A stretch of 39,794 nucleotides of DNA, taken from Methanohalophilus profundi (GTDB taxonomy: Archaea > Halobacteriota > Methanosarcinia > Methanosarcinales > Methanosarcinaceae). Each line of letters begins with the position of its first letter. Positions within the stretch are counted from its first letter, which is position 1. This document shows positions 13,816-35,731 of this stretch, one piece after another. A program made the position numbers and the translations under genes. The notes beneath the pieces are model-generated. The model did not search any database, was not told the origin of the DNA, and saw only the letters and a program-made list of their open reading frames with translations. Location: assembly GCF_004137855.1 (NCBI RefSeq), contig NZ_QBKB01000002.1:1008286-1048079 (forward strand), written 5' to 3'.

Positions 13816-14343
13816 ATGATATCAAACCGGGATAAAGAAACCTATAATGAAGTTGTAGAGCATTATGGTGGCAATAAGTTATCCTTTGGCCTTAAATTTT
13901 TAAAAAATTGGTTTTTAGAAAGATTAGCTAATAGTTGTCCTATTCCTTCATGGAGAGCAAAATAGCATAAAATGAGAGGAGTTAACATAGGCAATAATGT
14001 CTATGTAGGATATGATGTTGTATTTGATAGAATTCACCCAGAACTGATCACTGTAGGGGATTATTCCGAAATTGGAGATAAATGCATATTTTCTGCTCAT
14101 TCAAGAGGCACTTTGACCACCAGGCATGCATATCCACGAAAAATGGAACCCATAGAAATCGGATCAGGTGTATCCATCACTCCAGGCTGTATAATTATTC
14201 AAGGTGTAACAATCGGTAATGATTCCATAATAGGTGTAGGGTCCGTAGTTAGCAGAGATATTCCACCAAATAGCCTTGCTATGGGCTATCCTGCAAGAGT
14301 CATCAAAAAAATAGGCAAGGAAGAACAAGATAAGGAATCATAA
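13816..14343 (+). CDS. Left-handed beta-helix acetyltransferase with in-frame TAG
   Basis: ATG 13816 opens 49 codons (MISNRDKETYNEV...IPSWRAK) ending in TAG at 13963-13965. The same frame then continues HKMRGVNIGNNVYVGYD through a full hexapeptide-repeat domain ending in GYPARVIKKIG. Related acyltransferases have a continuous helix here (R-x-K-[LF]-x-K-x-RG-x2-IG), so the TAG replaces a residue inside one protein. It is read as pyrrolysine or another residue, or is a nonsense mutation. The hexapeptide fold and the SITPGCIIIQGVTIG motif fit an O- or N-acetyltransferase acting on a sugar. The ORF restarting at ATG 13972 would lack the N-terminal helix. Confidence 0.75.
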
Positions 14344-14345
14344 TC

Positions 14346-14593
14346 ATGAAAAATATAGTAATTGATTCACCTATTCTTCGTGACAAATATCCTCGCAGCG
14401 AGCACCTGTGAAAATTGGAAAAGGAGTCTGGATGGCGCCCGGTTGCATCGTGATACAGGGAGTTGAAATCGGAGATAATTCAGTTATAGGCACAGGTGCT
14501 GTAGTAAATAAAGATATACCTAAGAATAGTGTTGCTGTAGGTGTACCTGCGAAGGTTGTTAAGAAGTTAGACATTGAAGGTGACCCTGAATGA
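14346..14593 (+). pseudogene. Fragment of a second left-handed beta-helix acetyltransferase
   Basis: ATG 14346 reads MKNIVIDSPILRDKYPRSEH and hits TGA at 14409. Restoring one C at about 14404-14406 joins it to PVKIGKGVWMAPGCIVIQG and continues to VGVPAKVVKKL at the stop 14593. The result is only the last 80 or so residues of a hexapeptide acetyltransferase of the CatB/WbbJ type. The N-terminal two thirds are missing, so it is truncated as well as frameshifted. It sits 2 bp after the preceding acetyltransferase gene and may be left over from recombination between similar genes. Confidence 0.6.
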
Positions 14594-15614
14594 GAATTAT
14601 TGTAGACATTGCCCATCCGGCACATGTTCATTTTTTTAAAAATTTCATATGGGAGATGGAAAAAAGAGGTAATGAAGTAATCATTACAGCAGGAGATAAG
14701 GAAGTAACACTAAAATTGCTTGATAATTATGGTTTCAAATATCATTTCACCTGTAAGAGAACAACCGGATATAAATTGATGTTTGAAATTGTAAAACGAG
14801 ATCTTCAGATGCTAAAATTCGTTAAAAAATACAATCCTGATATTGTAATGGGCATTGCAAGTACAATTTCGGCCCATGTTTCAAGAGTAACTGATGCAAA
14901 ATCCATTGTATTTACAGACACAGAACACACAAAACTGGCAGATATGATTACATATCCTTTTTCTGATTTAATTGTAACTCCATCCTGCTATTCCAAAGAC
15001 CTGGGCAAAAAACAGATCCGCTACAACGGCTATCATGAACTTGCCTATCTGCATCCCAACTACTTCACCCCCGACCCGGCGGTGCTCGAAGAACTCGGAC
15101 TTGAAGAGGGCGACCCTTTCATTATACTGAGATTTGTCTCATGGGAAGCCAGTCATGATATAGGCCATCATGGCATCCAGAACAAAATAGAGTTTGTGAA
15201 AGAACTTGAAAAATATGGACGTGTGTTGATAACTTCGGAAGGCGATCTGGGGCCGGAATTTGAGAAGTATAAAATAAAAGTGTCTCCCGAAAAGCTGCAT
15301 GACATGCTTTATTATGCTACTTTGTATATTGGAGAGGGGGCGACAACGGCTTCTGAATGTGCAATCCTTGGCACCCATGCAATATATGTAAATACCCTCC
15401 GACTCGGATATACTGATGAACAGGAAGAAAAATACGGCCTTGTCTATAATTTTTCTAATCCGAATACCTGTGAAAAGACGCACTAAATAAGGCTACAGAA
15501 TTGCTTGAAAATGAAAAATTATGGAAAGATGGAAAGGAAAAAAAGGAAAAATTGCTTTCCGACAAAATTGATGTGACGGAATTTATGGTTAATTTCGTAG
15601 AAGAATATAGTTAA
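14590..15614 (+). pseudogene. DUF354 family glycosyltransferase-like protein, frameshifted near its 3' end
   Basis: The main frame (14590-15486) begins MRIIVDIAHPAHVHFFKN, the signature of the DUF354 family, a GT-B-like group found in archaeal surface-glycan loci. It includes GIASTISAHVSR and GEGATTASECAILGTHAIYVN. One A is missing from the run at 15473-15476; restoring it replaces the early stop by KDALNKATELLENEKLW, and the frame runs to TAA at 15614, giving about 341 residues. As it stands only the C-terminal helix is lost. It overlaps the preceding fragment by 4 bp and precedes a nucleotide-sugar dehydrogenase by 15 bp. Confidence 0.78.
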
Positions 15615-15629
15615 TCTAAGAGGGGTATT

Positions 15630-16946
15630 ATGAAAAACCTTACAGATAAAGTAGAAAACAAGAATGTATGTGTAGGAATCATTGGCTTAGGTTATGTGGG
15701 CCTCCCTCTTGCGATTGCCTTCTCCACCAAATTTAAAACCGTAGGCTTTGATGTGGATGAATCCTACGTAAATGAGATTCAAAAAGGCAAATCCAATATA
15801 ATAGACGTACCGGATGAAACATTACAGCAATATCTTGACAAAACCTTTTATCCCACATCCGATTCTCAGAAACTGTCTGAATGTGATTTCCTGATCATTT
15901 GTGTCCCTACTCCTCTTACCGAGCAGAAAGAACCTGATCTCAAATATGTAAAAAGTGCAACACAGATTGCTGCAGATGTGCTTGACAAAAGCAAATTCGT
16001 GATACTTGAAAGCACTACCTATCCCGGCACCACTGAAGAAATAGTCAGATCAATCCTGGAAGATTCGGGACTGAAAGCCGGCGAAGATTTCGGACTTGCA
16101 TATTCTCCCGAGAGGATAGACCCCGGTAATACAAAATACAATGTCCAGAATACTCCAAAGGTGGTTGGGGGAATTAATCCTGAATGTACAGAAATTGCAA
16201 CAACCCTTTACAGCTGTGTTATTGACAACGTGGTAAGTGTCAGGGATCCAAAAACCGCAGAGGCGGTAAAGATTGTGGAGAATATATTCCGGAATGTGAA
16301 CATTGCTCTTGTCAACGAACTGGCCCTGATTTTTGAAAGAATGAATATTGATGCCTGGGAAGTGATAGATGCAGCTGCTACCAAACCCTATGGATTCATG
16401 CCATTTTATCCCGGACCGGGTATTGGAGGCCACTGTATCCCGCTTGACCCCTACTACATGTCCTACAAAGCCAAGAAACATGGCTTTATACCCCGTTTCA
16501 TTGAGACTTCCGGTGAGATCAACGAGTACATGAAGATACATGCAGTCAATCTGGTGGAAAAGGGACTTGCCAAAGTGGACAAGAAACTCTATGGTTCAAA
16601 CGTGGCTGTAATGGGGCTTGCTTACAAGAAGAATGTAGGAGATACAAGGGAATCTCCGAGTATCAAGATTATTGAAGAACTTGTGGGAAACGGGGCTAAC
16701 ATCAGGGTGTATGATCCTTATGCGGAATCAATTGATACCAGAAAAGGCACCTATTATTCAGAAAACTGTATCGATGATGCACTAAAGAAGGCAGATGCTG
16801 CCATTTTTGTGGTTGATCATTATGAGTTTGGATCACTTGATATTGATCTGGGTGTAATGAATAATCCGGTTGTAATAGATTGCAAAAATATTGTCAAGAA
16901 TTGTGATGATGCTGTGTATTATGGAATTGGGAGAATCATTCAATGA
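15630..16946 (+). CDS. UDP-N-acetyl-D-glucosamine 6-dehydrogenase-like nucleotide-sugar dehydrogenase (WbpA type)
   Basis: A 438-residue intact NDP-sugar dehydrogenase. The N-terminal Rossmann motif is GLGYVG (19-24), followed by VPTPL and ESTTYPGTTEE. The catalytic cysteine is Cys269 in GPGIGGHCIPLDPYY, followed by a C-terminal UDP-binding domain (MGLAYKKNVGDTRESPS). The GHCIPLDP form is typical of WbpA-like UDP-GlcNAc dehydrogenases, which oxidise C6 twice with NAD+ to make the uronic acid. A second dehydrogenase of a different subtype is encoded at 34301-35731. The start follows GAGGGG; the stop overlaps the next start (ATGA). Confidence 0.9.
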   Translation: MKNLTDKVENKNVCVGIIGLGYVGLPLAIAFSTKFKTVGFDVDESYVNEIQKGKSNIIDVPDETLQQYLDKTFYPTSDSQKLSECDFLIICVPTPLTEQKEPDLKYVKSATQIAADVLDKSKFVILESTTYPGTTEEIVRSILEDSGLKAGEDFGLAYSPERIDPGNTKYNVQNTPKVVGGINPECTEIATTLYSCVIDNVVSVRDPKTAEAVKIVENIFRNVNIALVNELALIFERMNIDAWEVIDAAATKPYGFMPFYPGPGIGGHCIPLDPYYMSYKAKKHGFIPRFIETSGEINEYMKIHAVNLVEKGLAKVDKKLYGSNVAVMGLAYKKNVGDTRESPSIKIIEELVGNGANIRVYDPYAESIDTRKGTYYSENCIDDALKKADAAIFVVDHYEFGSLDIDLGVMNNPVVIDCKNIVKNCDDAVYYGIGRIIQ

Positions 16947-18280
16947 ACGGACTGAGCAAACCCCTCTTCATCCTTGCACATCAGGTGGGCGACCGCAATT
17001 TCTATCCCACCTACAAACGGTTGCTTGCAAACCAGTGGCAGAGCTATGCCCAGCAGAAAGAATCCCAGGAGATGCAGTTGAGGAAGATGGTGGATTTTGT
17101 GTGGGAGAATGTACCCTACTACCACAGATTGTTCCGGGAACTCGGGATTGGGCCTGAAGATATAAGGCTGGTAGAGGATCTGGAGAAACTCCCCATTCTC
17201 ACAAAGGATATCATTAAGGAAAACTGGGAAGATTTCAAACCGAAGAATCTGGAGAAAATGAAATATTATACCAACTCTACCGGAGGGTCCACTGGAGAAC
17301 CTTTTAAATATAGGCTCCAGAAATATGATCGCTTCCTGTCCGGTGCACTATTATACAGAGGATGGGGGTATGCCGGATATGAACTGGGAGATAAGATGGT
17401 TTTCCTTGCCGGCTCATCGTTGGATGTCGGAACAGAACCAATAATTAGCAAAAAAGCCCACGAAATATCAAGGAATGTAAAAAAATTATCTTCGTTTGAT
17501 ATGGGATCCGATGATATTCAAAGCTATGTAAAAACTATTAATTCATTCAAACCAAAGTTTCTGAGAGGTTATGCATCAGCAATCAATCTCTTTGCAAATT
17601 ATGTGGCTGAAAATGACTTGGATATTCATCAGATGGATGGTGTGTTCACAAGTGCTGAAAAATTATTCCCTGTAATGAGAAGAAATATTAAGAGCGCTTT
17701 TAACTGTGATGTATATGATGGTTATGGTCTCAATGATGGCGGGATAGGTGCCTACGAGTGCCCTGAGCACAATGGATTACATATCGATACTGAGCGAAGT
17801 ATAATGGAGATTGTGAACAAGGATGGGACACAATTAAATGAAGGTGTTGGAGAGGTACTTGCTACCAGCCTGAATAATTATGCAATGCCATTTATACGCT
17901 ATGATACCGGTGATATGGGCCATCTTCTTGAGGACCAGTGTAGTTGCGGACGTGGATCGAAATTGCTGAAAGAAATATTAGGTAGGTCGATTGATATCTT
18001 AATAACTCCCGAAGGAAAACAGGTACATGGCTGGTTTTTCATTTATATGTTCTGGGAATACTCTAAAGGAATAAAGGAATATCAGGTAGTGCAAAAATCT
18101 CTGGAAAATATTGTGATCAAAATAGTCCCAGAGGATGATTTTGATGAAAAGCAACTAAATATGATAAAATCGGTTGTTCACAGTAAATCTCATGGGTGGA
18201 ATGTGGAGTTTAAATATGTGGATTACATTGAAAAAACAAATGCTGGAAAGCATAAATTTATAATAAATAACTATTGGTGA
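16943..18280 (+). CDS. CapK/PaaK-like adenylate-forming ligase
   Basis: A 445-residue member of the phenylacetate-CoA-ligase/CapK family. The nucleotide-binding loop is NSTGGSTGEPFKY, with YDGYGLNDGG in the middle, RYDTGDMG next and CSCGRGSKLLKEILGR near the C-terminal side. CapK-type proteins occur in capsule clusters and are thought to activate a carboxylic acid for transfer to the glycan; the substrate cannot be told from sequence. It overlaps the dehydrogenase by 4 bp and is followed 7 bp later by a GT2 gene. It is a relative of the LuxE domain encoded at 9.2-11.7 kb but not a copy. Confidence 0.85.
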   Translation: MNGLSKPLFILAHQVGDRNFYPTYKRLLANQWQSYAQQKESQEMQLRKMVDFVWENVPYYHRLFRELGIGPEDIRLVEDLEKLPILTKDIIKENWEDFKPKNLEKMKYYTNSTGGSTGEPFKYRLQKYDRFLSGALLYRGWGYAGYELGDKMVFLAGSSLDVGTEPIISKKAHEISRNVKKLSSFDMGSDDIQSYVKTINSFKPKFLRGYASAINLFANYVAENDLDIHQMDGVFTSAEKLFPVMRRNIKSAFNCDVYDGYGLNDGGIGAYECPEHNGLHIDTERSIMEIVNKDGTQLNEGVGEVLATSLNNYAMPFIRYDTGDMGHLLEDQCSCGRGSKLLKEILGRSIDILITPEGKQVHGWFFIYMFWEYSKGIKEYQVVQKSLENIVIKIVPEDDFDEKQLNMIKSVVHSKSHGWNVEFKYVDYIEKTNAGKHKFIINNYW

Positions 18281-18287
18281 ATAACAT

Positions 18288-19172
18288 ATGAACAATTTTA
18301 TAATGGTCACCCCTGCAAAGAATGAAGAACAGTTTTTACCGAAAGTAATTGATTCAATTGCCTCAAGTAGCTTAATTCCTGACATATGGATTATAGTTGA
18401 TGACAATAGTTCGGATAATACTCCAAAAATATTAAATGAATATAAAAACAAATGTCCTTATATAGAAATATTTACATTGAATGAAGCGCATCCAAGAGAT
18501 TTAAGTGTTCATTACTCTTATGTTTGTAACAAAGGATTTGACAGAGCAATTCAACTTTCAAAAGAAAAAAATGTTTCATGGGATTATATTGTATTATTAG
18601 ATGCAGATACAATCGTAAGCTCTGATTACTTTGATGGTATTTTTGAAGAGATGAATAGAAATGAGAGACTTGGAATATCAAGTGGAAATGTTCATTTACT
18701 TAAAGATGGAAAAATTGATTATGCAAAAATCGTACAAGATATTCCTTCTGGAACTGCAAGGGTTTGGAGAAGAAAATGTTTTGAAGAAACTGGCGGATAT
18801 ATGATAACTCATGCTCCAGATTCGGTTTCAAGAATAAAAGCAAAGCTAAAGGGATGGGATACTTTCAGATTTGATAAATATGAAGCATACCAATTACGAG
18901 AAACTGCTTCTGCAAGTGGATTATGGAATGGATACATAGTTACGGGTAAATCTGCATACTATCTCCAAAAGAATCCTATTTTAGTTTTTTTAAATTCGAT
19001 TAGTCATGCTTTAAAAAAGCCACATTATACAATGCTGCCTTTTTTATATGGATATACTATTTCAATCTTAAAAAGGGACTCCCAGATCGATGATGATGAA
19101 ATAAGACATTATTTTAAATACACAAGGCTTTTTGAACTAGCGTCAAAATATATAAAAAACATATTAAGATAA
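18288..19172 (+). CDS. Family 2 glycosyltransferase
   Basis: A 294-residue GT-A enzyme. The N-terminus MVTPAKNEEQFLPKVIDSI and IIVDDNSSDNT give the nucleotide-binding part, and LLDADTIVS holds the DxD metal site at about residues 104-106. The acceptor half has VWRRKCFEETGGY. A weakly hydrophobic C-terminal stretch may touch the membrane, but there is no clear transmembrane helix. It is intact, unlike many of its neighbours, and markedly more AT-rich than the dehydrogenase gene upstream. Probably adds one sugar of the surface glycan; donor unknown. Confidence 0.88.
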   Translation: MNNFIMVTPAKNEEQFLPKVIDSIASSSLIPDIWIIVDDNSSDNTPKILNEYKNKCPYIEIFTLNEAHPRDLSVHYSYVCNKGFDRAIQLSKEKNVSWDYIVLLDADTIVSSDYFDGIFEEMNRNERLGISSGNVHLLKDGKIDYAKIVQDIPSGTARVWRRKCFEETGGYMITHAPDSVSRIKAKLKGWDTFRFDKYEAYQLRETASASGLWNGYIVTGKSAYYLQKNPILVFLNSISHALKKPHYTMLPFLYGYTISILKRDSQIDDDEIRHYFKYTRLFELASKYIKNILR

Positions 19173-19287
19173 AGGGCGATATAATATGGGTTTTAGAAAT
19201 TTTGTTGACTGCAAATAGAATCAAAAAAATATTCCTCTAAAAGATACATGATAAAATTCAGATAACTCTTTTGTAAATTGAATAGAC

Positions 19288-21292
19288 ATGTTATCAAGAA
19301 CACAATTTATTAACCATAACACTTTTACGAGATGGAAATTGCAAGTTTTGCTTGCTTTGAACGATAAGGCGAGGTTTGACGCAAAAAAAACATCCATTTC
19401 AAAATTTATTTTAGTCTCATCCGTGCTATTCAGTACATTGGCAATAATAGTTGCTTTTCAAAATCCAATGACTGGATATGAATTATCTATATATTCTGCT
19501 ACACCCAAGATTGTATGGTTAAGTCTTATAATAAGTATAAGTGGATCGCTTTTTATTGTGATATATCAAATATATAGCAATCAATACAAATTGAATAATT
19601 TATGGCTTTGGGGTTTACTAGTACTACTTTATAATCGTGTAATTATCTTATATATCCCCTATATAAGAGGAATTTATTCATGGAGAGGTGACAATTTAAG
19701 CCATATTGGAGCAATAATTGATGTATTAAAGGATGGGCATGTCACTGAAACTAACTTTTATCCGATTACACATATTTTTTTAACACAAATGCACCATATA
19801 GGTAACATAGATATTGAATATATTGTGAATTATAGTACAGGTTTATTCTCAATATTTTATGTTATAGCAATATATCTATTATCAATTACTATATTTTCTT
19901 CTAAAAAAGCACAAATATTATCTACATCCTCAGTTGTCATTGTATTTTTTGCATATAATGTATATCTTATGCCTAATGGATGGTCTCAATTATATCTTCC
20001 CTTTGCAATTTTTTTTATTTTTTAAGACGTTAGGAAATAGAAATATATTCCAGTACAAGATTTTATTTTTAGTTATACTGCTATTATATCCTTTTTTCCA
20101 TCCAATAACATCATTATATCTTATAGTATGCATAGGAATTACCATAATTTATATGAGCTACTCTATACTTAACATAAATAAATTTTTTAATCCAAAAAAG
20201 CACATAAAAGAGATGAAAACTAAAAATATATTATCTGTCAGCAGCAAACCATATCAATTAATTAAAGAAAAAATATTATTTATTTATGATCAAATGAAGC
20301 ATGCCCCTACCTATTATCTAATACTTGAAATTGTAATTTTTAGTTATTGGGTATTATTGTTTGGTTTCTTCCATAAAAATATAAGAAATATGTATTACTC
20401 TTTAGTGAGAGGATCAAGTAATAGCAATACAATTGGCTCAATGCAAAACACATTAGACAAAATTGGTGTAACTGGAGCTGATTTTATTGAACTTTTGGTG
20501 AAAATGGAGGGAGCGAATTTATTATTTATAGGATTATTTATAATTAGTCTTTTTATATATATCAAAAGCAAAGATGTTCAGCAAAAAGATCCTTATTTAA
20601 TATTATTAGCAATAATAACAGGTATTACTGCTGTTATTTATGCAGTCTATTTATTTGGTATCGTTCCAGGTCTTGAAAATATAAATGCTGAAAGACTAAA
20701 AACTTACATAACTATTTTTACGCCAATTTTTGCGGGGTTTGTATTCCTATATTTGACAATGCCAAAAAAGAAATTTTATAAGTCAATGTTTTTCTTGTTT
20801 GGAATAATTGTTTTGACTGCTTCTATGTTATCAATATTTAGTCTATATAATTCTCCATATATAATGCAGCCAACGCCTTCAGTAACTCAAATGGATATGG
20901 AAGGAGCAGAGTGGTTTACAAATTACCATAAAGAGGGGACATTAACTGTTCATATAATTAGTCCAATGCCACGATTTGCAGATGCAATTATGGGAGAAAG
21001 TGAAAGGAGAGACACTTTAGGATTCAGCCGATCTATTCATAAAAATGTTCCAGACCACTTTAATTACAATGTAAACAATAGATTGGGAAAAACATATATT
21101 GATGACAAGTACATGATGATTACGATGTTTGATAGGAGAATATACGAAAGCGTTTGGAAAAATATTGGAAGATTTGACAAACATGATTTTAAAGTCTTAA
21201 ATAACGATTCGACAGTTACAAGAATCTATTCTAATAGTCAATCTAATTTATACCATATATCAGGTATACAATTGAATCAAAATACGGAATAA
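19288..21292 (+). pseudogene. Large multipass membrane protein (GT-C-like or polymerase-like), frameshifted in a poly-T tract
   Basis: Two overlapping frames (19288-20025 and 19934-21292) belong to one gene. The first ends in AIFFIF inside T8-A-T6 (20009-20023); dropping one T lets it continue as KTLGNRNIFQYK in the second. Together they give about 665 residues with roughly ten or more membrane helices and a soluble C-terminal domain (about 20880-21290). The loop RGDNLSHIGAIIDVL followed by FYPITHIFLTQ resembles the first luminal loop of GT-C glycosyltransferases, with a possible catalytic Asp. An O-antigen-polymerase-like role is possible from context. The tract could be an error site or a phase-variation switch. 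Confidence 0.65.
20009..20023 (+). repeat. T8-A-T6 homopolymer tract at the frameshift of the membrane protein gene
   Basis: Eight T, one A and six T stand exactly where the two frames of the membrane protein meet. A change of one T in either run switches the gene between a 245-residue product and the full-length one. Confidence 0.7.
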
Positions 21293-21407
21293 GACCAAAA
21301 AATATTTCTGTATAGATTCCATGTGAATAGTTATTAAAACCGAAATATACATATAATTATTATAAATTAATAATGTGCAGGCATTCAAAGATTATAAAAT
21401 CTAACTT

Positions 21408-22230: not shown

Positions 22231-22469
22231 TAGGTTCATGTATAAATAAAATGCATGATCTACGCTCATGAAATACCAAATGGCACCAAAAAAGGTTACA
22301 TTTTTAAAGTGTGAAGCTAATTTGGTAGTCTCGATACTATTCAAAATATACAAACTACTATCTTTTTATAAAATTAGTGTTCGTTACTGATAGAAAATTA
22401 GAAATTATAAGGTGCCGATAAAAATACATACTAAATCCTTATATGACCATTAAGGGAGTTGATTATTAA

Positions 22470-23565
22470 ATGAAAGATGTATACATTTGTTTCACTCCAT
22501 ACCATATCATATTATCTTGTGCAATAGCATTTGCTAAGAATGATAAAATTGAAAATGATTTGATAATTCAACCTAGTTTTCCTAATGTAGACAATTTTAT
22601 AGATGGAATCAAAGAGTGGAATGACAATTTATTTAATGAAATTATAGAAATTCCTGGGCGTTACGAATCAAAGCCACGAAATATAAAAATTATTAGTACT
22701 ATCGAAAATATTTATAAATATAAAAGAGCAAATCAATTATTAAAAAGAAAATATAACCATACTATGATAAATAATCTTTACATATTTAATGATTGTAGTC
22801 TTTCAGGACAGCTTCTGGCTTATTTAAATGACCAAAATGGTGGATGTAATATATATGTTGAAGATGGAATGGCCGCATATATAAATCAAATACCATCTAG
22901 GTCTATACGTCAATTATTAGCTCGCCATATATATAAACTTACATTTGGTAAATGGTATGAACAAAATGAAAAACAGGGTCTATGTAAATATATAGATAAG
23001 TTTATGGTTTTAAATCCCCAACATATTCGTATAGATTTGAGCAAAAAAAATATTAATGCTATTGAACTCGAAGATATTTTTAACCTAAATACAACTGGTC
23101 TACCTAATAAGATCACAAAACAATTCAATTTAAATATTTCAAAAAGAGAGAATGTAACGATTTTAATACTTTCTCCCTCTTACTTCTTAATAGAGAATGG
23201 TATATTGAATAAATGTAAGAACATAATAAATCAAATTGTAGAAAAAAAATTCTAATACTCTGATAAAATATCATCCAGCCGAGAAAAATTATTATTTGGA
23301 TGATATCATTTGTTCTGAAAAGATTATCCCTCAGTCTATTCCTTTAGAAATTATTTACCTATATCTAATGGACACTCCTCCAACTAATGTAATTGGAGAC
23401 ATATCAACATCATTGATGACTTCTAAGTTATTACTCGAAAAGACAAATGTCATTAGTTTAGCCAATATTTATAAATATAAAAATGATTCTATCATAAATT
23501 TATTTTCCAAAGTTGGAATTTTGGTACCACACAATATTGATTCATTATTTGACGTTTTAACTTGA
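22470..23565 (+). pseudogene. GT52-like (sialyltransferase-type) glycosyltransferase, frameshifted in a poly-A tract
   Basis: The first frame begins MKDVYICFTPYHIILSCAIA and includes NIYVEDGMAAYIN, matching the start and the E-D-G motif of GT52/polysialyltransferase-type enzymes that use CMP-activated nonulosonic acids. It stops at 23255 just after A8 (23242-23249). With one A fewer the frame continues NTLIKYHPAEKNYYLDD, where H-P is the family's second motif, then NVIGDISTSLMTSKLLL, and ends at 23565, about 364 residues. The CMP-sugar supply operon at 27-34 kb makes a pseudaminic acid transferase role attractive, by inference only. A good SD (AAGGGAGTTGAT) precedes ATG 22470. Confidence 0.65.
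23242..23249 (+). repeat. A8 homopolymer at the frameshift of the GT52-like gene
   Basis: Eight consecutive A follow GTAG directly before the premature TAA at 23253-23255. One A fewer or two more restores the full-length transferase, so this is a possible slipped-strand switch or a miscalled homopolymer. Confidence 0.7.
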
Positions 23566-24238: not shown

Positions 24239-25645
24239 ATGCGCATGGTTTCGAATAACACCATATTAGAACAATTTATTGAAATTGAAAGTAACTCAAA
24301 TCTATGGAATTATGAAATCAATGGAATTCATCTATGGCCTCTTATTCGAACAGACACTTTTACATATGTGAATAATGAATCCAAAGGTTATTGTGCGGCT
24401 CATGCAAATACCAATAAAACTAATTTTTTGAAACCACGTTTTTTTATGAATGCATTGAAAACCCAACTTTTTTTTATTGCAAACAAAGCAGATTATGATT
24501 CCTTGTTCACCACTACCAAAAGATATCTTTCAGAATCCGGCAGGTATAATGATTGTTTTTATGAACCATATATGTCTTTATTTTCAAAACCTCTTATTTT
24601 TGAAAGCAGTTATCAGGGTCAGACCAAACAACCATGGGAAAAGGAAGAGAAATATTTATTTGATTTTATTGTACTTTCCTCTGCAGTAAAAGCTATTATC
24701 AAATTACAACTTAAACAGGGCAAATACGAAAAAGAAATTTCAGAATTCACATTGCTGGTATGCCAATCATTTTCAATTCCGGATCATTACCCCCAGTTGA
24801 ATAAAATATTGGATAGAAGTTTCCACAGCATAAAATACATAAAATCTCACACTAACAAAATTAGTAATCGTCTGGATGGAAAGATTGCTTTCATACACTG
24901 TGCCTCCTATCTTTCAACCCATGGAGAAATAATCAAAAGTTTAAAAGAAAATGGAATTACTACGATTGAATTACAACATGGTTATGTTGGTAAGGAACAT
25001 CACGCGTATAATTATCCAACAGGAGATGCGCAATTAATTGCTAAAGAATACTTGCCCGATTATTATCTTACTTTTGGTAAATACTGGAACGAACAAATCC
25101 AGACACCAAGCAAAGTAGTAACTGTTGGAAATCCTTCCTTCAATAGTTCCAGAGATTATCATGATAAGAATTGTACTGTTGATCCAAATTCGATTCTAAT
25201 AATATCCCAGGGGACGGTCACTCCTAAAATGGTCAAAATCGCTACATATCTCTCAAAAGAGTTCCCGGAAAGAACAATTATTTTCAAACTACATCCCGGA
25301 GAAGTACCTTTTAGAGAACGGTATGAGGAACTTGATCAATATGAAAATATACTAATAAAGACCTATGATGATATATATGAACTCATAGCATCAACCAAAA
25401 TAATTGTAGGCTATAATTCTACAACACTCTTTGAAGCTATGGCATACACCGATAAAAGAATCCTTGTCTTGCAAAATAATTCAATCCCGGATTCAATCGG
25501 ATACAAATTTTCTGCATGTGAGGAACTGAGAGATGCAATTTTGAATCCTAAATAGGGATATTCTACAGCAGACTCCTCGTATTTCTGGGAGCCAGACTGG
25601 GAATCCAGGATAGCGGAATTTTTGTCTGGATTATCGCAGAAGTAA
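24239..25645 (+). CDS. GT-B-like capsule/teichoic-type glycosyltransferase, with in-frame TAG near the C-terminus
   Basis: The 438-residue part up to TAG at 25553-25555 has a C-terminal half typical of capsule/CDP-glycerol-transferase-like GT-B enzymes: IELQHGYVGKEHHAYN, IISQGT, FKLHPGE and GYNSTTLFEAMAY. The N-terminal half is poorly conserved. After the TAG the frame stays open for 29 codons and reads GYSTADSSYFWEPDWESRI and then AEFLSGLSQK to TAA at 25645. The FWE-x-DWE-x-RI-x-EFL pattern looks like a natural C-terminal helix, so the TAG is probably inside the gene. It would transfer a sugar or sugar-phosphate of the surface polymer. SD AAGGTG precedes ATG 24239; ATG 24245 is an alternative. 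Confidence 0.72.
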
Positions 25646-25653
25646 AAGTCGAA

Positions 25654-27212: not shown

Positions 27213-27246
27213 CAACATTAATTTACTAATCTATAATGGGATTATT

Positions 27247-28215: not shown

Positions 28216-28222
28216 TGATTCT

Positions 28223-28624: not shown

Positions 28625-29745
28625 TTCCTTATGGCCACCAGTCTATTGATGAAAGGGATATCGAAGCAGTTATTAATGTATTAAGAAGTGATTGGTTGAC
28701 TACTGGTCCTAAAGTCAAGCAATTTGAAGATTCTCTTTGCGAGTATGTGGGATGTGATTATGCCACAGTCGTTAATAGCGGCACGAGTGCACTGGATATA
28801 GCAGTGGCTTCCCTTAATCTTCCCAATGGTGCAGAAGTGATCACAACCCCTTTTACTTTTGTTGCTACAAGCAATTCATTGATTTATAATAATTTAAAAC
28901 CTGTTTTTGTGGATATCAAAAAGGATACCCGAAATATTGACCCTGATGATATTAGACGTAAGATCACTTCCAATACAAAGGCCATAAGTTTTGTTGATTA
29001 TGCCGGGCAACCATGCGAAATAGATAAAATAAAAGAGATTGCAGAAGAGTTCGATCTGTATCTCATTGAAGATGCATCGCACGGCCTTGGTGCAAGTTAT
29101 CATGGAAAAAAGATTGGTAACTTTGCAGATCTTACTGTTTTTAGTTTCCATCCTGTAAAACCAATTACTACAGGGGAAGGGGGAGCAGTAGTCACAAACA
29201 ATGCTGAACTTGCAGAGAGGGTCCGTCTTTTGCATAACCATGGAATTGACAAAAGTGCAACCGATAGATATGGGCCTGATGCAGGATGGGCTTATGACAT
29301 GAATATTCTTGGCCGCAATTACAGGATGACAGATATTCAGGCAGCCCTTGGCATTTCTCAACTGAAAAAATTGGATGATTTTATTGAGAGGAGAAATGAG
29401 ATTGCACATCTCTATAATGAATTACTGGACGGCTGTGAGTTTGTTGAAAGACCGATAACCAAAGAAAATGTGGTTCACGGCTGGCATATTTACACGGTAT
29501 TACTTGATGAATCAATTAGTAGGAATGAATTCTTCAAATACATGCGAAAGAATGAAGTTGGTGTGAACGTCCATTATATACCATCATATCATTTCAGTTA
29601 TTACCGTAATAATTTTAATTTCAATGAAAGAGATTATCCTGAAACAGAGGATGTATTTAATAGAATTGTTACTCTTCCAATACACCCAGGAATGAAAAGA
29701 GAAGACGTAGAGTACGTGGTAAATACTCTAAAAGAATGGAAATAA
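28621..29745 (+). CDS. pseC: DegT/DnrJ/EryC1 aminotransferase (PseC-like)
   Basis: A 374-residue PLP-dependent sugar aminotransferase. VNSGTSALD (51-59) binds the cofactor phosphate, IEDASHGLGASYHGKKIG gives the PLP aspartate, and the Schiff-base lysine is Lys180 in FSFHPVKPITTGEGG. The FHPVK-x-IT-TGEGG form and GWAYDMNILGRNYRMTDIQ are typical of PseC, which aminates C4 of the PseB product using glutamate. It overlaps the cupin gene by 4 bp. A second, different DegT aminotransferase is encoded at 37324-38397. Confidence 0.9.
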   Translation: MIPYGHQSIDERDIEAVINVLRSDWLTTGPKVKQFEDSLCEYVGCDYATVVNSGTSALDIAVASLNLPNGAEVITTPFTFVATSNSLIYNNLKPVFVDIKKDTRNIDPDDIRRKITSNTKAISFVDYAGQPCEIDKIKEIAEEFDLYLIEDASHGLGASYHGKKIGNFADLTVFSFHPVKPITTGEGGAVVTNNAELAERVRLLHNHGIDKSATDRYGPDAGWAYDMNILGRNYRMTDIQAALGISQLKKLDDFIERRNEIAHLYNELLDGCEFVERPITKENVVHGWHIYTVLLDESISRNEFFKYMRKNEVGVNVHYIPSYHFSYYRNNFNFNERDYPETEDVFNRIVTLPIHPGMKREDVEYVVNTLKEWK

Positions 29746-29754
29746 ATATTTGAG

Positions 29755-30462
29755 GTGATCTGCATCAAAGCCGTTGCAATAATACCTGCAAGGGGAGGGT
29801 CAAAAGGTATCCCCAGAAAGAACATCAAAGAACTGTGTGGGAAACCACTTATAGGTCATATTATAGAAACTGCATTGGAAGTAGACGAACTCGATCGGGT
29901 AATTGTATCTACCGAAGACGCTGAAATTGCAGATGTTGCTAAAAATTTTGGTGCAGAGATACCCTTTATCAGATCTGAAGAACTTGCAAGGGATGAAACT
30001 CCTACATTACCTGTATTACAGCATACTGTAGAGTATCTTGAAAAAGAGGAGAATTATTATCCAGACATCATTGTCTTATTATATCCCACATCGCCTTTAC
30101 TGAGCAATGAAAGGATATCAGAGGGAATTAAACTTATTAGTAAAGGAAAATTTGATTCTGTCATAAGCGTGGTTGAAGATAAGGGACACTATTGGATTGA
30201 GAATGAGAATGGATATGAACGCTTATATCCTAAAATATTGAAAAACCGTCAATTGACAAAACCACTGTTTAAAGAAAATGGTGCATTTTATATTTTCAAA
30301 CGAGAAGTTTTGATGGAACAGAATCTCCTTGTGGGAAACAGTATTGGTTTTGTAGTAATGCAGGATAAAGAATCAATAGATATTGATGAACCATTTGATT
30401 TTGAGATGTGTGAAATATTACTGGAAAAAAGGAACGTATCTTGTAATCAATACAGTTTATAA
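29755..30462 (+). CDS. pseF: CMP-nonulosonate cytidylyltransferase (PseF/NeuA-like)
   Basis: About 235 residues with IPARGGSKGIPRKNI, the CTP-binding signature of acylneuraminate cytidylyltransferases, then LLYPTSPLL and GAFYIFKRE; it activates the nine-carbon sugar as the CMP derivative. The start is odd. GTG 29755 is itself part of GAGGTGAT, a near-perfect SD. The codon at the right spacing after that SD is ATC (29764-29766), where relatives would have ATG before KAVAIIPARGG. So either GTG 29755 is used with a poor SD, or ATC is used, or an ATG was mutated. The gene is otherwise intact. Confidence 0.88.
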   Translation: MICIKAVAIIPARGGSKGIPRKNIKELCGKPLIGHIIETALEVDELDRVIVSTEDAEIADVAKNFGAEIPFIRSEELARDETPTLPVLQHTVEYLEKEENYYPDIIVLLYPTSPLLSNERISEGIKLISKGKFDSVISVVEDKGHYWIENENGYERLYPKILKNRQLTKPLFKENGAFYIFKREVLMEQNLLVGNSIGFVVMQDKESIDIDEPFDFEMCEILLEKRNVSCNQYSL

Positions 30463-30489
30463 GAATGAGCAAATGAAAGAGTAATATAT

Positions 30490-31188
30490 ATGAATAAAAA
30501 TAAAATAATAATTGCAACTATAAAATCTTGGAATATAAAAAATGCATTGAAATTCAAAGAGGAATATTGCGAAAAATACGATGTATTAATAATTACGAAA
30601 AAAGATGATTTAAATTATGAGACTATAAAACAGCATGACCCAGAATACATTTTTTTCCCTCACTGGTCATGGATTATTCCTGAAATAATATATACTAATT
30701 TTGAATGTGTGGTATTCCATATTACAGATTTACCTTATGGACGGGGTGGAAGCCCTTTACAAAATTTAATTTTAAGAAAAGTCTACAATACAAAAATATC
30801 AGCAATAAAGGTTGAACAAAATCTGGATGCTGGCGAAGTTTATATTAAAAAAGATTTTTACATTGGACTTGGTAGCGCAGAAGAAATATTCATGGAAGCT
30901 TCTAATATTATTTTTGAAATGATAAATTATATAGTTGATAAATCTCCAGAACCACAATATCAAAGCGGTGAACCCGTTTTTTTCAAAAGAAGGACACCTT
31001 CTGAAAGTGACATTTCAAAACCGGATTTTAAGAATTATGATGACATATATGACTTTATAAGAATGCTTGATGGTGAAGGCTATCCTAAATCATTCCTAAA
31101 AATTGGAAATTTCAAGATTCTTTTTTCAGATATCCATAAGAAAGGAGATAAACTTACAGGAAGGTTTGATGTTGTTGAAGACAAATAA
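30490..31188 (+). CDS. Formyltransferase family protein (sugar N-formyltransferase-like)
   Basis: A 232-residue protein of the methionyl-tRNA formyltransferase fold but much shorter. The core reads YIFFPHWSWIIPE, then VVFHITDLPYGRGGSPLQN, a variant of the N-x-H-x-S-x-LP-x-YRG catalytic loop with His and Asp retained, and EQNLDAGEVY. It probably transfers formyl from N10-formyl-tetrahydrofolate (or the methanogen equivalent) to an amino sugar. Its place in a Pse operon next to a deacetylase suggests that one N-acetyl is replaced by N-formyl. It follows pseF by 27 bp and overlaps the PIG-L gene by 20 bp. Confidence 0.8.
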   Translation: MNKNKIIIATIKSWNIKNALKFKEEYCEKYDVLIITKKDDLNYETIKQHDPEYIFFPHWSWIIPEIIYTNFECVVFHITDLPYGRGGSPLQNLILRKVYNTKISAIKVEQNLDAGEVYIKKDFYIGLGSAEEIFMEASNIIFEMINYIVDKSPEPQYQSGEPVFFKRRTPSESDISKPDFKNYDDIYDFIRMLDGEGYPKSFLKIGNFKILFSDIHKKGDKLTGRFDVVEDK

Positions 31189-31861
31189 AACAATTTTAGT
31201 AATTGCTGCCCATCCAGATGATGAAATACTGGGTTGCGGAGGTACTGTCAAAAGACTGGTTGATGAAGGTCATAAAGCTTATACACTAATATTGGGTGAA
31301 GGAGTCACTTCAAGAGATGATTCAAGAGATAGAAGCAAAAGAGAACAAGAATTATCTAATCTGAAAGGGCAAGTTAAGGGAGCAAATGAATTAATTGGTG
31401 TAAAAGATACATTCCTATATGATTTTCCAGACAATCGATTTGATAACATCCCATTACTTGATGTTGTAAAAGTTATAGAAGAAGTGAAGTCAGAAATTAA
31501 ACCAGATATAATATTTACTCATTACAAAGATGATTTAAATATTGATCATCAAATAACATACAAAGCTGTATTAACAGCAACTAGACCATTACCAGATGAA
31601 TCTGTAAAAGAAATATATTCTTTTGAAGTGTTATCATCTACAGAATGGAACTATCCTCTTAGCTTTTCACCTGATGTTTTTTTTGATATAAGCAGTTCTA
31701 TTGAATCCAAAATAAAAGCTATGAGTGCTTACAAATCTGAACTCAGAGAATATCCACACCCAAGATCATTGAAAGGAATCAATCTAAGTGCAAAGAATTG
31801 GGGAATTAAAGTTGGGTTTGAATATGTTGAAGCTTTCAAATCTGTGAGGGTTTTGCGATGA
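31169..31861 (+). CDS. PIG-L/LmbE family deacetylase
   Basis: About 230 residues. AAHPDDEILGCGGT (residues 13-26) holds the zinc ligands and catalytic Asp, TRDDSRD-like acidic residues follow, and FTHYKDDLNIDHQITYKAV supplies the second His motif. PIG-L enzymes remove N-acetyl groups from GlcNAc-type sugars. An upstream in-frame ATG at 31103 would overlap the formyltransferase much further; ATG 31169 behind AAGG fits the fold. It overlaps the next gene by 4 bp. With the neighbouring formyltransferase it suggests exchange of an acetyl for a formyl group. Confidence 0.85.
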   Translation: MLLKTNKTILVIAAHPDDEILGCGGTVKRLVDEGHKAYTLILGEGVTSRDDSRDRSKREQELSNLKGQVKGANELIGVKDTFLYDFPDNRFDNIPLLDVVKVIEEVKSEIKPDIIFTHYKDDLNIDHQITYKAVLTATRPLPDESVKEIYSFEVLSSTEWNYPLSFSPDVFFDISSSIESKIKAMSAYKSELREYPHPRSLKGINLSAKNWGIKVGFEYVEAFKSVRVLR

Positions 31862-32403
31862 AATTCAAAAAGCAGCATGATTTTGGAGATTTTGTATTAA
31901 TAAATTTTACAGAGTTGAATAAAAAAGAAAAAGACAGCATAAGGGAATGGAGGAATAGTGAAACTGTTCGGAAATGGATGTACTCAGATTCATTAATATC
32001 GCCAGAAGAACACACTCAATTTATAAATAGTCTAAAATTGGATACAAAAAATTGTTATTGGCTTGTTAGTAATAAAAAAGAAGAACATATTGGGGTTATT
32101 TATCTAAATAAAATTGATTTTAGAAATAAGAACGCTTACTTAGGAATATACAACAATCCAAATTGTAAACTAAAAAATAGAGGCAGTATTCTTATAAACC
32201 TCATAATCGAATTGTCTTTTTCATTATATGAACTCCATACATTAAAACTTGAAGTGATCGAGAACAATGAAAGAGCTATAAATTTCTATAAAAAAGCAGG
32301 TTTTATTCAGGAAGGGAGACTGAAAGAATTTGTTTTAAAAAATGGAAGTTGGCATGATGTAATTGTGATGGGTCTCACAAATGATAAGGAGATACCTATA
32401 TGA
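31858..32403 (+). CDS. pseH: GNAT N-acetyltransferase (PseH-like)
   Basis: A 181-residue GNAT protein: IREWRNSETVRKWMYS near the start, YLGIYNNP in the acceptor strand, RGSILINLIIELSF as the acetyl-CoA loop, and LEVIENNERAINFYKKAGF in motif B. This is the PseH pattern; PseH acetylates the C4 amino group installed by PseC. The acetyl-CoA P-loop is R-G-S rather than the canonical Q-x2-G-x-G/A. It overlaps both neighbours by 4 bp (ATGA), so it is part of the same translational unit. Confidence 0.85.
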   Translation: MKFKKQHDFGDFVLINFTELNKKEKDSIREWRNSETVRKWMYSDSLISPEEHTQFINSLKLDTKNCYWLVSNKKEEHIGVIYLNKIDFRNKNAYLGIYNNPNCKLKNRGSILINLIIELSFSLYELHTLKLEVIENNERAINFYKKAGFIQEGRLKEFVLKNGSWHDVIVMGLTNDKEIPI

Positions 32404-33446
32404 ACATTCATATTGGAAACAAGTCTATCGGAAATAGAAACCCTGCTCTCATAATCGCTGAGCTATCTGCCAACCATCTACAAAATTATGACCTGGCAAT
32501 CGATACAATAAAAGCCATAAAAGAATCTGGGGCTGACGCTGTCAAAATCCAAACATATACTCCAGATACTATTACTATGGACTGTGACAACGAATACTTC
32601 CAGATCAAACAGGGTACCATCTGGGACGGAAAGACAATGTACCAGCTTTACAAGGAAGCATACACTCCATGGGAATGGCAACCCAAACTCAAGAAAATAG
32701 CTGAAGAGATGGGGCTTATATTTTTTTCATCTCCATTCGATAAAACTGCAGTAGATTTTCTTGAAGAAATGAATATTCCTGCTTACAAAGTCGCTTCATT
32801 TGAAATCACAGATATTCCTCTCATAGAATATGTTGCATCGAAAGGAAAACCTGTAATAATTTCTACAGGTATTGCCACACTCGCAGATATTGAAAAAGCA
32901 GTAAATGCATGTAAACGGATGGGCAATAAACAAATAGCACTTTTAAAATGTACTTCGACATATCCCTCTCCTCTTGAAGAAATAAACCTCAATACAATTC
33001 CAAACCTCAAAGATACTTTCAAAACGGTTGTAGGACTATCAGATCATACACTTGGGACATCCGTGCCGATAGCTGCTACTGCACTCGGTGCTAAAATAAT
33101 TGAAAAACATTTCATACTGGACCGTAACATTGGTGGACCGGATGCTCAGTTTTCACTTGAGCCTCATGAATTCAAAGATATGGTTGACTCTGTAAGAGAG
33201 GTTGAAAAAGCACTGGGGGAAGTTAGTTATGAGCTTACAGAGAAAATAAAAAGGAGCCGGGAGTTCTCACGTTCTCTTTTTGTAGTGAATGATATAAAAA
33301 AAGGAGATGTTTTTACCGATAATAATGTACGTTCCATAAGACCCGGATTTGGTTTGCACCCATCTCATCTTTCTTCCGTAATAGGCAAAAAAGCACGAAC
33401 AGATATTAAACCAGGAACTCCTTTGAAATGGGATTTGATTGAATGA
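32400..33446 (+). CDS. pseI: Pseudaminic acid synthase (PseI)
   Basis: A 348-residue NeuB-family synthase: IIAELSANHLQNYD at the start of the TIM barrel, then GTIWDGKTMYQLYKEAYTPW, which separates PseI from sialic and legionaminic acid synthases, LKCTSTYPSP, GLSDHTLGTSVPIAA and EKHFILDR. A C-terminal SAF (antifreeze-like) domain occupies about 290-348. It condenses phosphoenolpyruvate with the six-carbon diacetamido sugar to give the nine-carbon acid. Its usual partner PseG, which removes UDP from the precursor, is not recognisable in the operon. Overlaps both neighbours by 4 bp. Confidence 0.92.
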   Translation: MNIHIGNKSIGNRNPALIIAELSANHLQNYDLAIDTIKAIKESGADAVKIQTYTPDTITMDCDNEYFQIKQGTIWDGKTMYQLYKEAYTPWEWQPKLKKIAEEMGLIFFSSPFDKTAVDFLEEMNIPAYKVASFEITDIPLIEYVASKGKPVIISTGIATLADIEKAVNACKRMGNKQIALLKCTSTYPSPLEEINLNTIPNLKDTFKTVVGLSDHTLGTSVPIAATALGAKIIEKHFILDRNIGGPDAQFSLEPHEFKDMVDSVREVEKALGEVSYELTEKIKRSREFSRSLFVVNDIKKGDVFTDNNVRSIRPGFGLHPSHLSSVIGKKARTDIKPGTPLKWDLIE

Positions 33447-34192
33447 ATTTTGGTTTGAAGCTCTGGTCTACCAATGCAGATGTTATTGACAAAGCTGCTT
33501 GCCTTATTAAAGAAGATGTCTTCCAGTATATTGAGCTCACACCTATTCCAAATACTGAAATATATCCGTTCCTGAAGCAGGATGTTCCGTATGTGATACA
33601 TATCACTACTGAAAGACACGGATTCAACATTGCTGATGAGAGTAAATGGGATTTTAATATTCAAGTCATTGATGAATGTATAGAATGGGCTGATAAACTG
33701 AATGCAAAATATCTGGTTTTGCATCCGGGGTTTGGTTCTATTAACAAATCGCTGGACTTTCTGCAAATGATAAATGATGATAGGATCTTAATTGAAAATA
33801 TGCCTAAAGTGGGACTTTATGATGAGCAAATGATAGGTTATTGGCCGGAGCAGATTGAATCGTTGATGGGATCAAAATTTGGACTCTGTCTGGACCTGAA
33901 TCATGCAGTCAAAGCTGCAATTAGTTTAGGGCTCAATTACAAAGATTTTATATTGGAATTTATGGAATTAAATCCTTGTTATTTTCATATTGCAGATGGC
34001 AGATTGAATTATGAGAAGGATGAACATTTAGCGATTGGGGAAGGCGAATACGATTTTGAATTCTTAAAGAATCTGATGAAATTTGCAAGTAATGCTCAGG
34101 TTACATTCGAAACACCAAGGATGGACTTAAATTCCTTCTCAGATGACATTCGTAATATGAACATACTGAACCAGATTTCTGCAAATAGCTAA
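33443..34192 (+). CDS. Xylose-isomerase-like TIM-barrel protein
   Basis: A 249-residue TIM-barrel protein of the sugar-phosphate isomerase/AP-endonuclease superfamily. Likely metal ligands are in YVIHITTERHG, YLVLHPGFG, RILIENMP, GLCLDLNHAV, CYFHIADGR and VTFETPR, a complete set of strand-end Glu, Asp and His residues, so it looks catalytic. It is the last gene of the operon and overlaps pseI by 4 bp. Its reaction is unknown. As the only operon member without a pathway role while PseG is absent, it may replace the hydrolase or epimerise the product; this is only a suggestion. Confidence 0.75.
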   Translation: MNFGLKLWSTNADVIDKAACLIKEDVFQYIELTPIPNTEIYPFLKQDVPYVIHITTERHGFNIADESKWDFNIQVIDECIEWADKLNAKYLVLHPGFGSINKSLDFLQMINDDRILIENMPKVGLYDEQMIGYWPEQIESLMGSKFGLCLDLNHAVKAAISLGLNYKDFILEFMELNPCYFHIADGRLNYEKDEHLAIGEGEYDFEFLKNLMKFASNAQVTFETPRMDLNSFSDDIRNMNILNQISANS

Positions 34193-34204
34193 TTCTACTA
34201 TATA

Positions 34205-34270
34205 ATCACGAAAAACACTGTATCCGTGATACAATTGTGACATATATATGTATGAAATTTCCGATTTCAT
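34205..34270. terminator. Hairpins between the convergent pse and dehydrogenase operons
   Basis: Two short palindromes follow the TIM-barrel gene: ATCACG/CGTGAT at 34205-34230 and ATGAAAT-ttccg-ATTTCAT at 34252-34270. They lie in the 108-bp gap between convergent genes and may help end transcription on both strands. Archaeal terminators need only U-rich tracts, so this is a weak call. Confidence 0.3.
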
Positions 34271-34300
34271 GCGATCCTAAAAACATCGGGGTTTTACGCT

Positions 34301-35731
34301 TTAATTTACAACATCATGCCCGTTCTTATCTCCCCTACCAATCCCCTAATACACAAACCCTGCATCAATAAAAGCATCCGGCTCCACCACATTCCTGCCG
34401 TCCACGATAACAGGATGAGTCTGTCCGGACAACTCCTGCAACTGCCGGGGCTCCAGGGAATAATACTGCCTGTGGCCTGCAAAGATCACCACTGCATCCA
34501 CACCGCCCAGCACTTCCTCCATATCCTGCGAAACTTCCACATCCGGATACTGCAGGACATGCGGGTCATGTACCCTAACGTCTGCGCCTGCCTCGATCAA
34601 TAAATCGCGATAGGGCTCTGCCGGGGTGTTCCTGGCATCATCCGAGTCATTGAGGAACGCCCAGCCCAGGATTGCCACTTTTGAATTTGCGATATTCTTA
34701 TTGATACGCTCCAGGGCCTCCACTGTCAGATTGTACATGTGCTCTGGCATGAAATCATTGATATGGCGGGCTGTGACGTAGAGGGACGGTTCCTCAGGGA
34801 AATCGAGGTCTGCCTGTTTGGCTATCTGCAGACCGCGCTCCAGGTGATAGGTGTCCTTGGTCAGGCAGTGGCCGCCCACACCGGCTCCCGGATACAGGAT
34901 CGCACGGGTGATGCCTTCGCCCTTGAGACTGGCCACGCCTTCCCGCACATCATAGACATTGATCCCCATGGCCTCACAGTACAGGGCCAATTGGTTGACA
35001 GCGGCGATCTGCAAATCCCTGAACGTATTCTCGGAGGTCTTGGTGACCTCGGCTGCAGTGGCGGACATCGGGATCACACGACCCTTTGTGAGCACCGGCT
35101 CGTACAGGTCCACAGCCCGCCGGGTACTGACATCATCAATCCCGCCCACGATACGGTCATGCTCCTGGATGTTCTGCAACAGGCGACCCACCATGACCCG
35201 CTCCGGTGCATGGGCCAGGGCGAAATCCTCGCCCGCCTTCAAACCGGATTCCTCTTCCAGGATCTCCCTGGCCATGCCTGTAGTGGTTCCGGGAGTGATG
35301 GTAGATTCCAGCACCACCAGCATACCGGGCCGCAGGTACTGGCCTACATGGCGAATACCCGCCTCCAGGGCCGAGAAATCCGGCAGCAGGTCCTTTGGGT
35401 CCTTGAACGGGGTCTGGATGGCCAGGGTTACTGCATCCATCTCGCCGATTTGGGAAAAATCGGGAGTGCACTCGAATTTATCTGCTTCAACTACCTTCCG
35501 CAATAAATCCTCCAGTCCGGGCTCCTCGCCCTTCAGGGGGCTTTCCCCGTGGTTTAGCAAATCGATCTTGTAGCCGGAAGTTGGAGAATCGCGCTGGAAA
35601 CCCAGCACCTTGTCGAATTCCGGGGAATCGGCAAACAGGGCTGCTGCGGGAATACCCACATAACCCATCCCTATCACACCTATTTTTTTGATCGGTCCAC
35701 GTTCTTCAAGTAATGATTGTAATTTATCCAT
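34301..35731 (-). CDS. Nucleotide-sugar dehydrogenase (UDP-ManNAc/UDP-GlcNAc 6-dehydrogenase type) with in-frame TAG near the C-terminus
   Basis: A GC-rich dehydrogenase: IGVIGMGYVGIPAA (19-30), TPFKDPKD, ESTITPGTTTG, APERVMVG, and the catalytic Cys289 in GAGVGGHCLTKDTYHL, followed by a UDP-binding domain. The frame reaches TAG (minus strand, 34346-34348) after DAGFVY, then continues GIGRGDKNGHDVVN to TAA at 34301-34303. Relatives, as I recall them, end in F-x-Y-[RK]-GIGRG, so the TAG replaces a basic residue inside a conserved tail. Stopping there would remove only 15 residues. The product makes the uronic acid for the minus-strand sugar operon. A SWISS-cheese-free, intact gene otherwise. 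Confidence 0.85.

Follow-up and report, generated by a model that had tools for sequence, protein, structure and literature searches.

Introduction

In the methylamine methyltransferases encoded by mttB, mtbB and mtmB, an in-frame TAG codon is decoded as pyrrolysine, and the residue it specifies is catalytic. An archaeal 'Pyl code', in which all TAG codons mean pyrrolysine, was reportedly described in 2025 with proteomics. Outside the methyltransferases, pyrrolysine has been seen in Thg1, the tRNA-His guanylyltransferase of Methanosarcina acetivorans (PMC2933860), where PMC3639795 describes the in-frame amber codon as neutral and reports pyrrolysine as non-essential for activity. The amber codon of the citrate synthase gene of Methanohalophilus mahii was proposed to encode pyrrolysine in print in 2010, the argument being that the product is indispensable (PMC3017947). 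Here we report on a 39,794-nucleotide stretch of the genome of Methanohalophilus profundi, a salt-loving methanogen (assembly GCF_004137855.1, contig NZ_QBKB01000002.1, positions 1,008,286 to 1,048,079; hereafter the window), in which three genes of a glycan cluster each have a single in-frame TAG: an acetyltransferase gene (P1), a glycosyltransferase-like gene (P2) and a nucleotide-sugar dehydrogenase gene (P3).

We consider it very probable (about 0.87) that UAG in this Methanohalophilus is a sense codon decoded by pyrrolysyl-tRNA(CUA), and that the three TAG codons would be recent and would give full-length enzymes with one pyrrolysine each. They are very probably pyrrolysine codons because the full pyl machinery is present, because TAG rarely ends genes, and because a TAG also lies within the gene of prolyl-tRNA synthetase (ProRS). 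Both the identity of the residue as pyrrolysine and the efficiency with which UAG is read are things that we infer.

The three sites differ from the methylamine methyltransferases, in which the TAG is conserved across orthologues: here it is private to M. profundi among the genomes seen, and the MttB- and MtbB-family genes of the same genome keep their TAG, for which the decoding would be the same. With the archaea said to use the Pyl code, M. profundi would share a complete pyl set, in-frame TAG in conserved non-methyltransferase genes and the near absence of TAG as a terminator, the difference being the TAG that is kept here as the last codon of pylB and of a CofC-like gene, unless these are read through too. 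Thg1 also has its in-frame TAG in one species only. In P1 and P3 the private TAG stands one base from a sense codon of relatives, and in P2 it is reached only by way of TTG; pyrrolysine was physically observed in Thg1, whereas at our three sites it is predicted. The M. mahii citrate synthase gene likewise has a single TAG in a non-methyltransferase gene of the same genus, in a different gene. The available parts of PMC8211752, PMC8629427 and PMC11363022 hold nothing decisive on TAG decoding here.

Pyrrolysine beyond the methylamine methyltransferases is thus already known (Thg1, and the M. mahii proposal), and the three genes are new examples. An earlier note on this DNA had suggested that pyrrolysine would occur in glycan enzymes rather than only in methyltransferases. 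This is supported as far as TAG is a tolerated sense codon in such genes; they are not the first beyond the methyltransferases, and the support does not extend to a glycan chemistry that depends on pyrrolysine. What the analysis adds is a comparative-genomic case that Methanohalophilus uses UAG as a functional sense codon, for which ProRS is a stronger witness than the printed citrate synthase argument. Genes of this kind seem truncated or dead when translated by the standard code; if our reading is true, proteins far outside methylamine metabolism would depend on the pyl genes.

Pyrrolysine genes and gene ends

A complete pylT-pylS-pylB-pylC-pylD cluster was found at about C2:826.9-831.2 kb, some 180 kb from the window. 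All profile scores were above cut-off (pylS 695 bits with NF007083, pylB 517, pylC 445 and pylD 350 bits); the PylC N-terminal family PF21360 gave no match and PylC was found by TIGR03909 instead. Among 15 tRNAs in the 834 kb of the genome that were sampled (under half of it), tRNA-Pyl with anticodon cta was the sole suppressor-type tRNA. In this setting pylBCD would make pyrrolysine, PylS would charge tRNA-Pyl with it and the charged tRNA would read UAG. A one-base change of TTG, AAG, CAG, GAG or TGG to TAG would then be a missense to pyrrolysine and no knock-out, and new TAG codons would occur occasionally and be retained at positions that can accommodate a bulky lysine derivative.

Gene ends were compared by aligning the coding-like open reading frames (ORFs) of G005 (1.2 Mb sampled), one of seven other Methanohalophilus genomes (G001-G007), with the M. 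profundi sample at a coverage of at least 80%. The aligned set held 326 genes and 89,436 in-frame codons at a median identity of 95%, and 113 genes had a frameshift in the alignment while 213 had none. Of 259 aligned terminal codons, 254 were stops in both genomes; TAG accounted for two of the 254, pylB and the CofC-like gene each ending with it in M. profundi as well as in G005. Thirteen gene ends had swapped between TAA and TGA, and none had gone from either to TAG in M. profundi. In the reverse alignment, one gene that ends with TAA in M. profundi had TAG in G005, and the terminal TAG of three M. profundi ORFs was matched by a sense codon in G005. Few coding-like ORFs of the congeners had a terminal TAG either, with 2/130 in G002, 2/116 in G004, 0/45 in G003 and 11/915 (at least 100 aa) in G005. 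One of the two in G002 continues for 171 codons past the TAG (a gene of 101+171 codons), the two in G004 are pylB and a gene resembling MtbB-type genes, and among the coding-like ORFs of G005 that reach 60 aa only 4/976 ended with TAG without a coding-like continuation. Because TAG seldom ends genes in the genus, it seems that UAG acts as a sense codon. Low use of the amber stop in Methanomassiliicoccales and Methanosarcinaceae has been described as avoidance (PMC3941956).

Two other measures of TAG usage were set aside. The raw tallies of TAG-ended ORFs in M. profundi (14/344 among coding-like ORFs from 100 aa upward, 29/632 in a larger sample and 39/626 without filter) were rejected as a measure of termination, many of these ORFs being antisense or frameshifted by eye; in addition, P2 does not pass the coding filter, and the part of P1 before its TAG is too short for the ORF list. 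Tallies from named genera, based on the flanks of 57 of 80 loci, were small and mixed and were not used as proof (Methanosarcina 6/150, Methanolobus 16/123, Methanococcoides 3/45, Methanohalophilus sp. RSK 1/13, G005 15/911).

In-frame TAG codons

The earlier note had claimed that each of the three TAG codons is in frame, that the sequence past it is the expected remainder of the protein, and that the other recognised genes of the window end with TAA or TGA. Reading frames at all three sites bear out the first claim, and homologues align through every TAG (Table 1). Of the ORFs in the window that reach 150 aa and do not overlap, 32 in all, 17 end with TGA and 13 with TAA, and the two ended by TAG are P2 and P3 themselves. 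The note's reading of TAG as pyrrolysine gains support from the complete pyl cluster and the scarcity of TAG terminators, two things that it had proposed to check.

At the P1 site, the codon in 8 of the 29 relatives is TTG, one base from TAG. The P2 site is reached by two relatives, G002 (86% identity) and a 38-residue fragment in G001, and three further loci align and end before it; from the TTA of the nearest relative, TAG is reached only via TTG. The NCBIfam matches of P2 were all below cut-off (NF046086, E 2.4e-11) and a Pfam scan of this protein returned no match. For P3, TIGR03026 scored 320 bits (above cut-off) and NF040825 312 bits (below its cut-off of 750), and the closest named match was Methanohalophilus sp. 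RSK (94%). With paralogues and fragments counted, the 92 stretches aligned at the P3 site had Lys in 77, Arg in 11, and Glu, Ser, Leu and Tyr in one each, and AAG to TAG is a one-base change. The three residues show no sign of a special role: relatives mostly have Leu/Phe, Leu/Ile and Lys/Arg in their place, and none has the TAG. Judged from these alignments, the sites look like recent, tolerated replacements in which pyrrolysine would not be catalytic, and such permissive-looking sites would fit the neutral appearance reported for Thg1.

ProRS is expected to be an essential enzyme. In M. profundi the only full-length ProRS match (TIGR00408, 639 bits) has TAG at codon 177, and a further match extends over some 100 residues (28% identity, E 2.8e-9); genome completeness is 89.98%, and a second copy may lie in the missing part. 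In the congeners codon 177 is TGG in G005, G006 and G002, and GGC, TCC, AAG or AAA in the others, and the ProRS gene of G007 has a TAG at codon 59. TAG at two ProRS codons in two species speaks for a repeated, tolerated substitution. Of the eight Methanohalophilus genomes, three have a full-length citrate synthase gene, which in G004 carries an in-frame TAG; four have only a C-terminal remnant of it, and in one it was not found (L316-L322). ProRS is therefore a better witness than citrate synthase, whose indispensability is weakened by being only a remnant or not found in five of the eight genomes.

In the 213 frameshift-free genes, interior stops in M. profundi were TAG in four cases (codons 478/581, 49/431, 199/408 and 462/476, the last being P3), TAA in five and TGA in none. 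The five TAA codons were rejected as mid-gene stops, two being upstream of the real start and three inside the last seven codons, where they reflect variation in end length; a TAG at codon 14/458 of a helicase-like ORF in G005 was likewise rejected, as it sits ahead of the likely start. Under a mutation model based on fourfold sites, nonsense changes should fall to TAA, TAG and TGA in shares of 0.42, 0.37 and 0.21; with three to four clean cases, the excess of interior TAG is by itself no more than suggestive (0.37^4 = 0.019).

A stronger test than that of interior stops is whether coding-like sequence continues past a stop, counted here without P1, P2 and P3. In G005 it did so for 7/11 TAG codons against 59/965 other stops (TAA 31/461, TGA 28/504; Fisher p 1.3e-6), and in M. 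profundi for 7/33 TAG against 48/658 TAA or TGA (p 0.012). Many of the TAA and TGA continuations have a fresh ATG soon past the stop by eye, which is the next gene in the same frame. In five of the eight non-methyltransferase TAG genes compared with Pfam a domain spans the TAG, namely a malic enzyme and a UDP-glucose-dehydrogenase-like protein in M. profundi and three genes of G005 (Table 1). In the CLC-CBS, four-CBS and wHTH-type proteins the best Pfam domain listed stops short of covering the TAG.

Selection also appears to act past the TAG. Nonsynonymous divergence (dN) was well below synonymous divergence (dS) on both sides of the codon in ProRS, the malic enzyme, the CLC-CBS protein, the UDP-glucose-dehydrogenase-like protein, P2 and P3. 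Downstream of the TAG, dN and dS were 0.011 and 0.117 in ProRS (301 codons, against G005), 0.008 and 0.141 in the malic enzyme (208 codons), 0.026 and 0.235 in the CLC-CBS protein, 0.015 and 0.188 in the UDP-glucose-dehydrogenase-like protein, 0.030 and 0.339 in P2 (29 codons only) and 0.037 and 1.344 in P3 (12 codons only). For P1, compared with a distant relative, dN was 0.199 upstream and 0.143 downstream, dS being 2.7 and saturated. The relaxed selection past the stop that is expected of a pseudogene was not seen, though the tails of P2 and P3 are short and dS in P1 is saturated.

Alternative explanations

Several observations weigh against the view that UAG is read as pyrrolysine. The release factor aRF1 has its ordinary motifs, NIKS and YxCxxxF, in all eight genomes. 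Since this normal-looking factor occurs together with the pyl machinery, UAG could be both read and terminated, and some termination at UAG is likely. None of the aligned homologues shares the TAG at the three sites, so the codon is unconserved, and the P3 TAG lies 14 codons from the gene end. The raw counts of TAG-ended ORFs in M. profundi are not low in the two larger tallies given above. In the middle 5-95% of the frameshift-free genes, three TAG codons against no genuine other stop is a small number, and the 113 frameshifted genes, with four interior TAA and two TAG, look like ordinary noise. The reverse direction (three TAA, two TGA and one TAG inside frameshift-free genes of G005) adds no support, five of these stops lying within 12 codons of the end or start. 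Methylamine methyltransferases, which are already-known cases, make up three of the seven TAG continuations in G005 and two of the seven in M. profundi (called by Pfam for the two here, of the MttB and MtbB families, and by similarity to those for the three in G005). As a control, the 41 class I tRNA-synthetase matches in the eight genomes had no interior stop of any type, and thus in-gene TAG is uncommon. According to PMC2933860, UAG has a double role in pyl-bearing archaea, as sense codon and as stop; the same review describes one release-factor homologue in M. mahii, and PMC9499178 presents a model of competition between pyrrolysyl-tRNA and release factor.

The assembly itself also calls for care. 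Mid-gene frameshifts occur in 44/277 genes that are intact in G005, against 9/271 in the reverse comparison. An assembly so rich in indels may have single bases wrong too, and this is the main caution for any one site. Wrong bases at the three codons, in otherwise ordinary genes, are one alternative explanation, and the indels and incompleteness of the assembly and the single base that separates TAG from the codon of relatives in P1 and P3 fit such errors. We nevertheless regard this as very improbable, as errors would also yield TAA and TGA in the shares of the mutation model, and no genuine mid-gene one was found in the 213 frameshift-free genes. In addition, in-gene TAG occurs in congeners: in G005, where most TAG-ended ORFs continue, in the citrate synthase gene of G004, in the ProRS gene of G007 and in a gene of G002.

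Genuine nonsense mutation is also highly unlikely. In that case UAG would terminate and the genes would be truncated or dying, with products of 461 aa (P3), 438 aa (P2) or, after re-initiation, 123 aa (P1). The normal-looking aRF1, an ATG two codons past the TAG of P1 and the frameshifted neighbours in the same cluster (the short-chain dehydrogenase-like gene at 13050 and the gene at 22470-23565) are compatible with such decay. However, purifying selection is seen on both sides of the TAG, and the dehydrogenase tail that would be lost holds a stretch conserved in nearly all relatives. The presumably essential ProRS would also be lost, and changes to TAA and TGA would occur as well.

Finally, reading of UAG by a near-cognate tRNA (Gln, Lys or Trp), with pyrrolysine confined to methyltransferases, would suit the CAG, AAG and TGG codons among those of relatives at TAG sites, but is hardly credible in a genome that has its own tRNA-Pyl(cta) and the complete set of pyl genes, no other cta tRNA being present in the 834 kb searched (under half of the genome).

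Terminal TAG codons of pylB and a CofC-like gene

The two genes that keep a terminal TAG deserve separate mention. PylB was surveyed in 40 genomes, and among the 30 best of 35 matches above cut-off the gene ended with TAG in 19, TGA in 8 and TAA in 3. By eye, all eight TGA-ended genes have ATGA, overlapping the likely pylC start, and in 17 of the 19 TAG-ended genes an ATG starts one base past the TAG; in the four Methanohalophilus genomes examined, the pylB TAG is one base ahead of the pylC start. PMC2933860 gives TAG as the end of pylB in M. mazei, M. acetivorans and M. burtonii, and TAA in M. barkeri. Readthrough would add 39 residues to PylB and four to the CofC-like protein, and the TAG of the latter could be either a real terminator or a harmless short extension.

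The idea of a gauge comes from the pylB TAG being widely kept although TAG stops are rare. Abundant pyrrolysyl-tRNA would read through this TAG, termination-coupled starts of pylC would decrease, and with them pyrrolysine synthesis. It is possible that the TAG is retained as such a feedback gauge, or just by shared ancestry. A bolder combined proposal, that the genus has in effect reassigned UAG, with every TAG (those of pylB and the CofC-like gene included) meaning pyrrolysine, essential translation (through ProRS, with its independent TAG codons in two species) depending on the pyrrolysine supply and the pylB TAG acting as gauge, seems rather doubtful to us.

Table 1. Positions of the TAG-containing and TAG-ended genes discussed in the text (window positions unless a locus is given)
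Feature	Position	Strand	Basis or remark
P1, hexapeptide-repeat acetyltransferase, 175 aa with TAG as sense	13816..14343	+	PF00132; 29 of 29 other loci align through TAG
P1 in-frame TAG, codon 50/175	13963..13965	+	Leu (19) or Phe (10) in homologues
P2, surface-carbohydrate biosynthesis/glycosyltransferase-like protein, 468 aa with TAG as sense	24239..25645	+	Homology; sub-cut-off NCBIfam
P2 in-frame TAG, codon 439/468	25553..25555	+	Leu (TTA) in G002, Ile in G001 fragment
P3, nucleotide-sugar dehydrogenase, UDP-N-acetylmannosamine dehydrogenase-like, 476 aa with TAG as sense	34301..35731	-	TIGR03026
P3 in-frame TAG, codon 462/476	34346..34348	-	Within conserved Y-[K/R]-GIGRGDKN; AAG (Lys) in nearest relatives
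G005 integrase, domain spans TAG	L168:13835-15439	-	Pfam
G005 histidine kinase (PAS), domain spans TAG	L170:10509-12143	-	Pfam
G005 Y-family DNA polymerase, domain spans TAG	L215:1883-2971	+	Pfam
pylB	L086:8262-9323		TAG-ended; family loci L276-L305
CofC-like gene	L104:6102-6731	-	Pfam; TAG-ended here and in G005; next stop 4 codons on

Neighbouring genes

Two further ORFs of the window were considered as TAG-extended genes and rejected. In the ORF at 19859-21292 the TAG is at codon 3, upstream of the likely start, and the ORF at 23236-23565 is by eye the out-of-frame tail of a homopolymer frameshift. The gene at 22470-23565 is apparently split by this kind of change in an A run near 23240-23250 (by eye), and the short-chain dehydrogenase-like (SDR) gene at 13050-13797 has a one-base frameshift near 13530 (by eye), probably an assembly indel. 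P1 is directly followed, at 14396-14578, by part of another hexapeptide acetyltransferase, which resembles P1 residues 109-169 at 56%.

As to the product of the cluster, a NeuB-family protein with a SAF domain is encoded at 32400-33446, which makes a surface sugar of the sialic-acid type a possible product. At 9161-13042 a fused AMP-binding/LuxE protein stands beside a LuxC-type acyl-CoA reductase, in an archaeal glycan cluster.

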